Part shown: positions 2,747-14,259 of the stretch, one piece after another
Layout of the letters: the number at the start of each line of letters is the position of its first letter
Numbering within the stretch: the stretch's first letter is position 1
DNA from: a virus
Length of the DNA stretch: 23,499 bases
Direction: 5' to 3' (one strand)
IMG/VR virus record: IMGVR_UViG_3300009155_000277
Span: 1 to 23,499 of that record
Made by a program: the position numbers and the translations under genes
The notes under the pieces: generated by a model
Told to the model about the DNA's origin: nothing
Databases searched by the model: none
Seen by the model: only the letters and a program-made list of their open reading frames with translations

Positions 2747-2872
2747 TGGAAGGTAGCCCAATCGGTAGAGGCAGCGGAATGCAAAAAGATTAATCTGTTT
2801 TAAAGATTAAGTTCAGCAATTTAAACGCTATTTAGGAACCGCTAAGTGTTAGTTCGAATCTAACCCTTCCGA
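2747..2872 (+). tRNA. tRNA with about 52-54 nt intervening sequence in anticodon arm (Leu(TAG) or Pro(AGG))
   Basis: Acceptor TGGAAGG (2747-2753) pairs with CCTTCCG (2865-2871), T-stem GTTAG/CTAAC surrounds TTCGAAT, the D-arm is present, and the anticodon stem AGCGG (2773-2777) pairs with CCGCT (2839-2843). About 61 nt separate the stem strands instead of 7. The insert carries A-rich GCAAAAAGA, helix TTAATCT (2790-2796) with AGATTAA (2804-2810), GTT, CAGCAA (2814-2819) and about 12 nt to the 3' exon. Removing 2780-2831 gives a 7-nt loop with anticodon TAG. Removing 2778-2831 gives AGG. The G that would follow TAG favours Leu. The exact junction is inferred. Confidence 0.75.
2780..2831 (+). 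other. mini intervening sequence, unpermuted copy 1
   Basis: About 52 nt inside the anticodon arm of the tRNA at 2747-2872. Core: 7-bp helix TTAATCT/AGATTAA closed by a 7-nt loop, then GTT-CAGCAA, then 12 nt. It is far too small for a group I or II intron. Four other copies in the window share this core. Confidence 0.65.
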
Positions 2873-3860: not shown

Positions 3861-3874
3861 GTTACAAGGGTAAA

Positions 3875-3999
3875 AAGATTATTTCAGCAACCAAAAATTC
3901 AAGCCTTGTTAATGCCGTGGTCGTGGGTTCGAGTCCCATCAGACTTTAAGTAGTCTGTAGCTCAGCTGGTTAGAGCACGTATGAAAAAAAGTTAATCTT
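3875..3999 (+). tRNA. circularly permuted tRNA gene, probable tRNA-Asn(GTT)
   Basis: The 3' half comes first: loop TTGTTAA (3906-3912, anticodon GTT), TGCCG, variable TGGTC, T-stem GTGGG/CCCAT around TTCGAGT, acceptor CAGACTT (3940-3946). After TAAG comes the 5' half: (T)AGTCTG (3951-3957), TA, D-stem GCTC/GAGC, A, CG. AGTCTG is complementary to CAGACT. Joining CG (3978-3979) to GCC (3903-3905) gives a stem pairing with TGCCG at 4 of 5 positions. The outer ends carry the two halves of the mini-intron: AAGATTA (3875-3881)-TTT-CAGCAA (3885-3890)-12 nt before the 3' half, and A-rich plus TAATCTT (3993-3999) then G after the 5' half. The ends form a 7-bp helix. Circularisation followed by RNase P and 3' cleavage would yield a linear tRNA. 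Confidence 0.65.
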
Positions 4000-4000
4000 G

Positions 4001-4044
4001 TCCCCCCAAATTGGAGTCCTCTGCTCCTTAAACAGAGTAATTAA
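4001..4044 (+). other. spacer hairpins between permuted tRNA genes
   Basis: CTCTG (4020-4024) pairs with CAGAG (about 4032-4036), or alternatively GGAG (4013-4016) with CTCC (4024-4027). No gene. Confidence 0.3.
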
Positions 4045-4168
4045 AAGATTGTTTCAGCAATTAAACTCAAAAATTGTATGGATAACAAGCGGTCTGGGTT
4101 CGAATCCCAGCATGTCCTAACAGAGGTTTGGGCGTGTGGTGTAATGGTAGCACAAAAAGAGCAATCTT
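4045..4168 (+). tRNA. circularly permuted tRNA gene, identity uncertain (anticodon may be GGA)
   Basis: Same plan as 3875-3999. First the 3' half: arm TTGT/ACAA (4074-4077, 4085-4088) with 7-nt loop ATGGATA, T-stem CTGGG/CCCAG around TTCGAAT, acceptor CATGTCC (4111-4117). After a 12-nt linker comes the 5' half: acceptor GGGCGTG (4130-4136), TG, D-stem GTGT/GCAC with AATGGTA loop. GGGCGTG pairs with CATGTCC over 7 bp with two G:U pairs. The outer ends are AAGATTG (4045-4051)-TTT-CAGCAA (4055-4060) and AAAAAGAG-CAATCTT (4162-4168)-G, complementary over 7 bp. By numbering the anticodon is GGA (Ser), but the variable loop is short and position 37 is T, so identity is open. Confidence 0.6.
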
Positions 4169-4179
4169 GGTACTCAAAT

Positions 4180-4257
4180 ATGGCGTTAGCTCAGCTGGTA
4201 GAGCACCGCTGCTTTATTGTGGTGGATGGGTCGTAGGTTCGAATCCTACACGCTGTA
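4180..4257 (+). tRNA. tRNA with enlarged anticodon loop (possibly Lys)
   Basis: Acceptor ATGGCGT (4180-4186) pairs with ACGCTGT (4250-4256), D-stem GCTC/GAGC, T-stem GTAGG/CCTAC around TTCGAAT. The anticodon arm is odd: CCGCT (4206-4210) pairs with GGTGG (4221-4225), leaving a 10-nt loop GCTTTATTGT. The alternative CCGC/GTGG leaves a 10-nt variable region. TTT could be the anticodon, but position 33 would be C. It is either an unusual tRNA or a decayed one. Confidence 0.6.
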
Positions 4258-4258
4258 C

Positions 4259-4356
4259 AAGAACAAACTAGTGTTAGTTCAATTATTGCGGTTTGTAACC
4301 GTAAGTTGAATGAGATTGTGGCCACAATGGGTAAATTCCCACTAGTCTCTGTTCTT
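4259..4356 (+). ncRNA. tRNA-like structured RNA with Thr-type anticodon loop
   Basis: Two stacked closing helices, AAGAACA (4259-4265) with TGTTCTT (4350-4356) and ACTAGTG (4267-4273) with CACTAGT (4340-4346), enclose a long hairpin: TTCAA, TTGCGG (4286-4291), loop TTTGTAA (4292-4298), CCGTAA, TTGAA. The 7-nt loop equals that of tRNA-Thr(TGT). A hairpin ATTGT-GGCC-ACAAT and GGG/CCC around TAAATT follow. There is no normal D-arm or T-loop, so a standard tRNA is unlikely. It could be a tRNA mimic or a highly degenerate tRNA. Confidence 0.45.
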
Positions 4357-4600: not shown

Positions 4601-4671
4601 GATTCATTAGTGGAGTGGCACCACGGAGGGCGTTAAGCCATCAGACACTGGTTCGAGCCCAGTATGAATTT
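4601..4671 (+). tRNA. unusual tRNA, anticodon TTA by numbering
   Basis: Acceptor GATTCAT/ATGAATT, D-stem GTGG/CCAC with loop AGTGGCA, T-stem ACTGG/CCAGT around TTCGAGC. The anticodon stem GAGGG (4626-4630)/CCATC (4638-4642) has one G-A mismatch and loop CGTTAAG, which places TTA at 34-36 with G instead of T at 33. TTA would read the stop codon TAA. An alternative alignment gives GTT (Asn) with a shorter loop. It needs a covariance-model check. Confidence 0.6.
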
Positions 4672-4692
4672 CGAATATTTAAAAATTTAATA

Positions 4693-12911: not shown

Positions 12912-12973
12912 AAGATAGCTTCAGCAATTTTACAACTATCAAACTTTTAATTTGAATCAGAAAATGCTATCTT
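12912..12973 (+). ncRNA. mini-intron halves flanking a tRNA-Lys-like anticodon stem-loop
   Basis: AAGATAGC (12912-12919)-TT-CAGCAA (12922-12927) opens the unit and AGAAAAT-GCTATCTT (12966-12973)-G closes it. The 8-bp outer helix is perfect. These are the same 3' and 5' modules as in the permuted tRNA genes. The 'exon' is only about 20-26 nt: TCAAA-CTTTTAA-TTTGA (12939-12955), a perfect 5-bp, 7-nt loop stem-loop identical in loop sequence to tRNA-Lys(TTT). No acceptor, D- or T-arm is present. By analogy the product could be a tiny circular RNA. It has its own promoter. Confidence 0.5.
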
Positions 12974-12980
12974 GATTTAT

Positions 12981-13063
12981 TGGAGGGTGGCCGAGTGGTT
13001 AAAGGCGGCAGACTGTAAATCTGTTCTCGTAAGGGTACGGGGGTTCGAATCCCTCCCCTCCAA
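12981..13063 (+). tRNA. tRNA-Tyr(GTA)
   Basis: Acceptor TGGAGGG/CCCTCCA, D-arm GGCC...GGC, anticodon stem AGA/TCT region with loop CTGTAAA (anticodon GTA), long class-II variable arm (TCTCGTAAGGGTAC region), T-loop TTCGAAT, discriminator A13063. A normal bacterial tRNA-Tyr. Confidence 0.94.
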
Positions 13064-13073
13064 CAAAAATTAT

Positions 13074-13146
13074 GCCTTTGTAGCACAATTGGTAGTGCAC
13101 TTCACTTGTAATGAAGGGGTCGTAGGTTCGAATCCTATCAAAGGCT
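13074..13146 (+). tRNA. tRNA-Thr(TGT)
   Basis: Acceptor GCCTTTG/CAAAGGC, anticodon stem CTTCA/TGAAG, loop CTTGTAA (anticodon TGT), T-stem GTAGG/CCTAT, discriminator T13146. Confidence 0.95.
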
Positions 13147-13149
13147 CGC

Positions 13150-13179
13150 TTGACTTTTTTGTACCTTGTCGTATATTTA
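13150..13179 (+). promoter_or_regulatory. promoter of the GIY-YIG gene
   Basis: TTG at 13150-13152 and TATATTTA at 13172-13179, 19 nt apart. A variant of the usual pattern; TATATTTA also occurs before the gene at 16211. Confidence 0.55.
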
Positions 13180-13196
13180 TAATAAAACATAGATAT

Positions 13197-13841
13197 ATGG
13201 CAAGGAAAAAAGCAAACATACATTACCTATACAAAACTACTTGTTTGGTTACTGGTAGATGGTATATAGGAATGCACAGTACATGTAACATTGATGATGG
13301 TTATATGGGAAGTGGAAGACGATTAAGAGCATCATTAAGAAAATATGGTGTTGATAATCATAATAAAGAGATTTTAGAGTTCTTTGAGACACGTGAATTA
13401 TTGATTGAAGCAGAAATAAAAGCCATTACTGAAGATATGGTTTTAGATAACAACTGTATGAACCTTATGTGTGGTGGAACTGGAGGGTTTGTTAGTTTAG
13501 AAGCATGTAAAAAAGGTGGTGTTTTAGCACAACAAATTTTACGTGATAAATTAAAAGATAGTGAATATAGAAAAATAACAATGAAAAAGTTATCGGATTC
13601 TATGAAACTAGCATTCATCAATGGTGTTAAAAAAAGAAAGATTAATTATGATTGGAATGGAAAAACACATTCTGATGATGCTAAACAAAAAATGAGTGAA
13701 ACTAAAAAAGGTACTGGAGTTGGTGAAACAAACAGTCAATATGGTACATGTTGGATAACCAAAGATGGTTTAAATAAAAAAATTAAAAAAGAAGAGATTG
13801 ATACCTATCTAAATGAAGGGTGGGTTAAAGGTAGAAAATAA
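13197..13841 (+). CDS. GIY-YIG homing endonuclease, 214 aa
   Basis: The N-terminal GIY-YIG nuclease domain (about residues 8-95) shows HYLYKTT (the GIY position), WYIGMHST (the YIG position), the conserved Arg in SGRRLRASLRKYG, and the downstream Glu (LIEAE). A NUMOD3-like DNA-binding segment, GKTHSDDAKQKMSETKKG, lies at about 158-175, and the C-terminus ends with a GWVKGRK repeat typical of phage homing endonucleases. It is inserted in the tRNA array between tRNA-Thr and tRNA-Gly with its own promoter, so it is a free-standing mobile endonuclease. Its target could be in the tRNA region. Start ATG 13197 gives a full domain; the frame continues upstream only through the tRNAs. Confidence 0.88.
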   Translation: MARKKANIHYLYKTTCLVTGRWYIGMHSTCNIDDGYMGSGRRLRASLRKYGVDNHNKEILEFFETRELLIEAEIKAITEDMVLDNNCMNLMCGGTGGFVSLEACKKGGVLAQQILRDKLKDSEYRKITMKKLSDSMKLAFINGVKKRKINYDWNGKTHSDDAKQKMSETKKGTGVGETNSQYGTCWITKDGLNKKIKKEEIDTYLNEGWVKGRK

Positions 13842-14131: not shown

Positions 14132-14259
14132 GGGGGTGTTGAAATGTTAGATAATCACATTCTGCCTTTTTAGATTAAAGAATGTTTGCAGCAAAAATCA
14201 AAATTATTCACGCAAACTGTAAATTTGATAAAACGTTGGTGCAATTCCAGCCGCCCCCA
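14132..14259 (+). tRNA. tRNA with mini-intron in the D-arm, probable GTA (Tyr) anticodon
   Basis: At 128 nt it is about 54 nt too long. Acceptor GGGGGTG (14132-14138) pairs with CGCCCCC (14252-14258), T-stem GTTGG/CCAGC surrounds TGCAATT, and CAAA-CTGTAAA-TTTG (14213-14227) is a Tyr-type anticodon arm. The insert holds helix ACATTCT (14157-14163) then G, its partner AGAATGT (14179-14185) preceded by AAA, TTG, CAGCAA (14189-14194) and 12 nt. The exon then resumes at TTCA (14207-14210), which pairs with TGAA (14140-14143) to make the D-stem. A second reading as a class II Leu tRNA leaves the GCAAA/CTGTAAA region unexplained. The short variable loop is atypical for bacterial Tyr. Confidence 0.6.
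14153..14206 (+). other. mini intervening sequence, unpermuted copy 2
   Basis: The insert in the tRNA at 14132-14259; 3' boundary by the 12-nt rule after CAGCAA, 5' boundary approximate. Helix loop 15 nt. A pseudoknot-like pairing GTTTGC (14184-14189)/GCAAAC (about 14212-14217) is also possible. Confidence 0.5.

Follow-up and report, generated by a model that had tools for sequence, protein, structure and literature searches.

The virus record IMGVR_UViG_3300009155_000277, analyzed over positions 1-23,499 as a single stretch of 23,499 nt (23.5 kb; hereafter, the window), carries phage-type genes (homing endonuclease, GP88, DHFR, OmpA, and NUDIX) and at least five related RNA elements, of which two are permuted transfer RNA (tRNA)-like, two are tRNA-like in normal order, and one is short. 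The first permuted element was described in an earlier note on this DNA as a circularly permuted tRNA-Asn-like gene, broken within a mini-intron and spliced to a circle. Our analysis supports a different reading, to which we assign a probability of about 0.85: the element would be a phage Y RNA of YrlA-like architecture, i.e., a tRNA mimic hung on a phage Ro60 protein. Its parts are as follows.

3875-3999 between the end arms (whole element, 3871-4005), plus strand: permuted tRNA-like Y RNA candidate no. 1, in the order end helix, core, anticodon stem-loop, T arm, acceptor hairpin, D arm, A-rich strand, end helix
3875-3881, plus strand: end-helix strand B, AAGATTA, pairing with 3993-3999
3883-3890, plus strand: core TTCAGCAA, the putative 5' side of the proposed Ro60-binding internal loop
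3903-3917, plus strand: anticodon stem-loop portion, with the loop TTGTTAA at 3906-3912 (GUU)
3923-3939, plus strand: T arm
3940-3957, plus strand: acceptor hairpin CAGACT-TTAAGT-AGTCTG, with CAGACT at 3940-3945 and AGTCTG at 3952-3957
3960-3976, plus strand: D arm
3993-3999, plus strand: end-helix strand A, TAATCTT, with the A-rich strand just before it

In this element and its relatives, the ends pair in a covarying helix that is adjoined on its 5' side by the conserved strand (U)UCAGCAA and on its 3' side by a strand rich in A, and the loop closed in this manner holds a tRNA mimic made of T arm, capped acceptor hairpin, D arm, and usually an anticodon stem-loop. All the pieces on which the permuted order had been proposed (a T-arm/acceptor half ahead of an acceptor/D-arm half) were located in the window, and the noted complementarity of the outer ends AAGATTA and TAATCTT is borne out by an end helix that is recovered and covaries in relatives. 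The junction between 3979 and 3903 had also been placed correctly; joining across it in silico yields a sequence that ARAGORN calls as tRNA-Asn(gtt), and the sequence as encoded is not called. Two details require revision. Instead of a 4-nt linker, the acceptor has a loop of 6 nt and 6 pairs (T would face T in a seventh). The anticodon arm obtained by joining shows the expected loop TTGTTAA but carries a C-T mismatch at 31/39 in its stem.

The permuted arrangement is real and far beyond chance. When related phages were searched for it, as the earlier note had suggested, a strict core-plus-T-loop pattern retrieved 34 loci from viral contigs; inspection showed almost all of them to be permuted, with a few atypical cases (e.g., L018, L006, and L024). 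The same pattern matched 2 loci in a 257-Gb collection of bacterial and archaeal genomes, apparently by chance, the rest of the element being absent by eye. Fetched loci contained 147 distinct core-plus-T-loop sites, 106 of them with matches to the downstream end-helix strand, some by chance. Among 68 copies that passed a filter ignoring the acceptor, 40 formed 7/7 acceptor pairs, as opposed to 4.4% of 13146 half-swaps between copies. ARAGORN called tRNAs in 59/68 joined copies, 0/68 native copies, 0/1360 shuffles, and 253/1337 mis-joined halves; the last figure reflects the close relatedness of many halves. The join point was picked to maximize the anticodon stem. Given nothing but alignments in native order (26 and 17 sequences), RNAalifold folded each into the end helix, the T and D arms, and hairpins for the anticodon and the acceptor. 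Of the predicted pairs, 16/25 and 14/26, respectively, changed on both sides; the end helix itself shows both-sided changes in the larger set and one in the smaller. Phage tRNA clusters are often rearranged, which might suggest decayed tRNA debris or a chance arrangement, but these both-sided changes contradict such an origin, as does the 71:1 strand bias of elements in Ro60 loci described below, and we give it next to no credence. In the near-identical relative L014 (1483-1621, compared with 3871-4005 of the window), the acceptor differs on both strands (GGGCGGT/ACTGTCC), a pattern resembling wholesale exchange of the acceptor hairpin.

A permuted tRNA gene would imply a new intron class of ~45-50 nt, opened at the tip of its hairpin and spliced either autocatalytically or by an unknown enzyme acting with an RNA ligase, with the resulting circle later opened by RNase P and tRNase Z into tRNA-Asn. 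The tRNA calls on joined copies, which include the window's own as Asn GUU, speak for this possibility. So do normal-order tRNAs carrying the same module as an insert: the module is indeed common, as had been claimed, to the permuted element and to the RNA at 2747-2872, a real tRNA by its score (36.2 bits against the Rfam tRNA model), and 22/30 normal-order candidates are called tRNAs once the module is removed at one cut pair or more, out of up to 220 tried for each, in a set that includes some false hairpins. Their junction is similar to that of permuted copies, but the two termini of the RNA lie at the acceptor (by eye). Furthermore, CCA directly follows the discriminator in 6/83 permuted copies and 5/30 normal-order candidates, an archaeal permuted tRNA with a linker of 1 nt is described in PMC3978253, and RtcB, Rnl1, or Rnl2 RNA ligases occur in 18/21 element-bearing records of at least 150 kb. 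This last count covers element records alone, and ligases this common, lacking a control set, prove nothing about a splicing partner.

Several observations oppose splicing. The 83 permuted copies just mentioned, found in 65 loci and endowed with good acceptor, T, and D arms, come from a wider core search that gave 99 unique candidates; in this set, with acceptor positions chosen to maximize pairing, the loop between the acceptor strands spans 2-28 nt (median, 6), being 4-6 nt in 41/83 and 2-3 nt in 3, and some loops are classic tetraloop types (GAAA, GTAA, and TTCG). The insertion point of the module varies as well, falling between positions 26 and 27, 28 and 29, or ~33 and 34 (alignment and by eye). 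The tRNA-splicing endonuclease family PF01974 matched none of the 25 element-bearing phage records searched, and Rfam listed no group I or II introns in the regions scanned. Like the permuted tRNA genes of algae and Thermofilum (PMC3978253), the window element places the 3' half before the 5' half around a short linker within a tRNA body. According to the same source, algal permuted tRNAs, and probably archaeal ones, depend on the bulge-helix-bulge (BHB) motif and its endonuclease. In contrast, the junction in our alignments is a large asymmetric internal loop with no BHB seen (by eye only), no splicing endonuclease was found in the phage records, and versions lacking the tRNA body exist. Splicing is disfavored here because the end helix and core are also found around other contents, many acceptor loops are very short, PF01974 had no match in the phage records searched, and no BHB-like junction was seen by eye. 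Altogether, we consider an intron-bearing permuted gene improbable, and the mini-intron spliced to a circle is the poorer description of a module that also closes T-arm-less RNAs, supplies the word with the highest enrichment next to a phage Ro60-like gene, and belongs to a whole that resembles YrlA.

The diversity of loop contents favors the Y RNA interpretation. Some loops closed by this end helix and the UUCAGCAA/AAAA core contain nothing but a bare anticodon stem-loop, some lack any T loop, and some hold D, anticodon, and T arms minus the acceptor. Canonical anticodon stem-loops were present in 52/146 short elements, related copies being counted separately, versus 2.9 on average in shuffles preserving nothing but base composition. 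Of these 52, 35 carry U36, which marks the type of anticodon that carries N6-threonylcarbamoyladenosine at position 37 (t6A37). Many copies display the anticodon stem-loop next to the end stem, whereas others resemble YrlA in having the stem located at the anticodon loop (partly by eye). A stripped form with core, anticodon-like hairpin, T arm, and partial acceptor occurs in Aeromonas T4-like phages (L149, 2758-2865; L150, 3248-3360), where it is not annotated in the records and the D arm is absent by eye. T4 rnaC/rnaD, considered as relatives, are by eye not the element.

A candidate protein partner emerged from six whole element-bearing contigs, in which BLASTP clustering found only two protein families shared by five or more. 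One of them, present in 5/6 contigs, is a DUF2828 protein with a vWA-type domain assigned to phrog_850 ("RNA-binding protein"); the other, in 6/6, is a PhoH-like protein, named from reading its sequence. An AlphaFold model built from a 21-sequence phage alignment (predicted local distance difference test score [pLDDT], 80.4) placed Ro60/TROVE entries on top in both Foldseek and VIA, with VIA Z scores of 13.9-18.2 for the first ten rows, every one a Ro60/TROVE structure, and 10.4 for the next one. The top VIA matches include Ro60 of Thermus phage phiLo (PDB 9l5y), 378-402 residues were aligned, and the model combines a helical part and a vWA domain as in Ro60, at 11-18% sequence identity to the solved Ro60/TROVE structures. 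The DUF2828/phrog_850 protein is thus Ro60 by predicted fold, and the argument that no TROVE protein means no Y RNA was dropped accordingly. Some public phage records already name this protein "Ro-like RNA binding protein" or DUF2828, and TROVE proteins in jumbo phages are noted in PMC7824862. A tblastn match to it was obtained in 682 of 50,697 public phage records. In G018, the contig of L076, the Ro60-like frame (306953-308371) contains one in-frame TAG.

Elements and this gene travel together. Taking the best 80 of 582 relatives, we fetched loci by the Ro-like protein alone, with up to 5 kb on each side, and found at least one element in 51/80; 71 elements lay on the strand of the gene and 1 on the other, versus 0-6 and 0-4, respectively, for eight control 6-mers. 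An element stood within 400 nt before the gene in 17/78 loci with enough upstream sequence, and many others came just after it. By one strict expression, 65/71 same-strand elements lack a T loop, at least one of these (L437) having a variant T loop. Since our scans apply fixed CAGCAA rules, they find that core by design, and a few of the 71 matches fall in coding sequence (e.g., in L423 and L457, plus single ones in L455 and L482); occasional coding matches also arose in our other scans. An unbiased 6-mer count in 400-nt flanks serves as an independent check: CAGCAA ranked first, occurring in 64/80 loci versus 14.3 expected by Markov resampling, whereas its reverse complement occurred in 6/80 versus 9.8 expected. 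The next-ranked words, ATCCTG, TACAGC, and ATTCTG, are pieces of the two strands of the module.

Isolated phages show the same association. Eight isolates were chosen for host variety from 60 of the 682 matching records, and six of them carry 2-7 elements within ~1.2 kb of the Ro-like gene, all 24 sharing its strand (Aeromonas LAh_9, 7; Klebsiella KP13-16, 5; Escherichia JH2, 4; Listeria LP-125, 3; Mycobacterium Archie, 3; Campylobacter F356, 2). Those of JH2, KP13-16, and Archie include permuted tRNA-like copies (by eye). The annotated gene start in LAh_9 (3899) precedes two elements, and the protein match begins at 4001. A weak transfer-messenger RNA match under the cut-off (31.6 bits) was seen inside the tRNA cluster of KP13-16 (L502, 6390-6465). 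On the contig side, phrog_850 was found in 36/49 records searched, i.e., in 30/36 chosen for the element and 6/13 others (one partial; 12 of the 13 came from a tRNA scan and one was a chance match), and in 22/24 element-bearing records of at least 150 kb. The Ro-like gene lies inside 22/146 fetched element loci (1-15 kb each) versus 3/119 tRNA-fetched control loci; the element scan gave a match in 14 of these 119. Ro-positive control contigs comprise G026 with no element, G029 with 3, G033 with 4 matches (one apparently a coding chance match), and G037 with 2; among Ro-negative ones, G027 and G030 have one chance-like match each and G034 has none.

The whole of the window element also resembles a known Y RNA. 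The Rfam YrlA model (RF02553) aligns to 3894-4002 over model positions 1-114 of 114, with 46 bits. Both RNAs have an end stem, an internal loop with an A-rich 3' strand, and the order T arm, short-looped acceptor hairpin, and D arm. As a class, the phage elements share with YrlA a Ro60 gene close by, an arrangement that PMC7790460 documents as the operon rsr-yrlBA-rtcBA. YrlA has been reported from several phages (PMC7765460). Unlike YrlA, phage elements often have an intact anticodon stem-loop, include short T-arm-less forms, and occur up to 7 in a row. Ends forming a stem and proximity to a Ro60-family gene, two marks of a Y RNA, are found, the first in the element itself and the second for the class (51/80 loci and 6/8 isolates), with no such gene within the window. 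The literature searched contained no permuted phage tRNAs and no such Y RNA signature; an earlier description in the main Y RNA papers is possible.

A number of observations weigh against a Y RNA partnered with phage Ro60. The YrlA score of the window element is below the gathering threshold of 69, so it is no formal member of the family; the L502 copy reaches 39.7 bits, and YrlA at the gathering score was absent from the seven isolate loci scanned against Rfam. The phage core UUCAGCAA differs from YrlA's core letters. The Pfam TROVE profile had no match in 25 element-bearing records, so the link to Ro60 is made by fold comparison alone. By our scan, 29/80 Ro loci show no element; Stenotrophomonas DLP_6 has 0, and the only element of Vibrio VH7D lies on the strand opposite the gene. 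Among 20 further element records (16-160 kb, mostly fragments), only that of the relative L027 (64 kb) has a Ro60-like gene, which sets both searches combined at 31/56 element records. Neither the window nor its closest long relative G003 (206 kb) nor G068 (160 kb) contains a recognizable Ro60-like gene; such gaps could reflect incompleteness of the records, loss of the gene, or reliance on a Ro60 from the host. Finally, encoded CCA suggests that some copies may have real tRNA ends. It could be, accordingly, that the RNAs are Ro60 ligands and that some of those bearing a tRNA are additionally processed into functional tRNAs, as CCA-bearing copies, the integrity of the D, T, and anticodon arms, and the covariation of the acceptors might indicate. 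Capped acceptors, varied anticodons on one body, and T-arm-less elements argue against this dual fate, which we deem unlikely.

The remaining elements of the window illustrate the range of forms.

4045-4168 (whole, 4041-4177), plus strand: second permuted tRNA-like candidate, absent from the earlier note, with B arm at 4045-4051, core to 4060, anticodon-type hairpin at 4074-4088, T arm at 4094-4110, acceptor at 4111-4117/4130-4136, and A arm at 4162-4168
2747-2872, plus strand: normal-order tRNA with the module as a hairpin insert in the anticodon arm (A at 2790-2796, core at 2812-2819)
12912-12973, plus strand: short element with only an anticodon stem-loop, TCAAA-CTTTTAA-TTTGA (12939-12955, UUU)
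14132-14259, plus strand: second normal-order tRNA-like RNA (GGGGGTG/CGCCCCC), with the hairpin module at 14157-14185 and the variant core GCAGCAA (CAGCAA at 14189-14194)

A hairpin at 4011-4044 (CCTCTG...CAGAG), upstream of the second permuted element, also complements ACAGAGG in the acceptor loop (4118-4129) of that element. Upstream hairpin and acceptor loop change together in L008 (CCTCTA/TAGAGG; L008, L010, and L004 were compared by eye), and another subfamily shows a parallel pairing of upstream GACC with acceptor-loop GGTC (by eye). Elsewhere in the window, ARAGORN called tRNAs at 4180-4258, with an odd anticodon loop (ttat), and at 4601-4672, a possible ochre suppressor (anticodon tta). 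The region at ~4259-4355 looks tRNA-like by eye (ends AGAACA/TGTTCT, loop TTTGTAA) and had no ARAGORN call. A homing endonuclease frame (phrog_314; 12972-13841) lies within, and as listed overlaps, the tRNA-Tyr/Thr part of the tRNA cluster.

Under the Y RNA interpretation, the phage Ro60-like ring protein would bind the end helix and core, leaving the tRNA mimic to hang outside, where it might tether or titrate a tRNA-acting enzyme, e.g., a repair enzyme or an anticodon nuclease. The ends of the molecule would then lie at the tip of the Ro-binding stem rather than at the acceptor, which would account for the back-to-front order. The normal-order "intron" tRNA at 2747-2872 may be a body of this kind whose opening lies at the acceptor, with splicing unneeded. 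From sequence, we infer a function as tether or as anticodon-nuclease decoy; the varied anticodons, the abundance of anticodon stem-loops in short elements, and the prevalence of U36 fit a tether or decoy for anticodon-arm enzymes.

Phages also encode tRNAs that escape anticodon nucleases. The present elements are comparable as tRNA-like RNAs showing an anticodon arm, but these arms are grafted on a proposed Ro-binding stem and many lack an open acceptor end. A more specific and tentative proposal, somewhat short of even odds, is that phage Ro60 ribonucleoproteins act as display racks presenting interchangeable anticodon arms to titrate or capture host anticodon nucleases or tRNA-modifying/repair enzymes. 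The displayed arms, mostly of U36 types (e.g., UUU, UGU, and UCU), would span everything from complete permuted tRNAs to an isolated arm of 17 nt, in one RNA design opened at two points, acceptor or Ro stem.

The variety of anticodon arms on display thus suggests anticodon-nuclease decoys, close to the inhibitor idea raised for YrlA in PMC7790460. As stated in the same paper, bacterial Ro60/Y RNA function had been studied in Deinococcus radiodurans only. Our findings also carry a warning for annotation: permuted or intron-bearing phage "tRNA genes" may be Y RNAs. The signature of end helix, UUCAGCAA, and A-rich strand picks out candidate phage Y RNAs of diverse shapes in the vicinity of a Ro60 gene and makes the system accessible to searches and to tests in laboratory phages.
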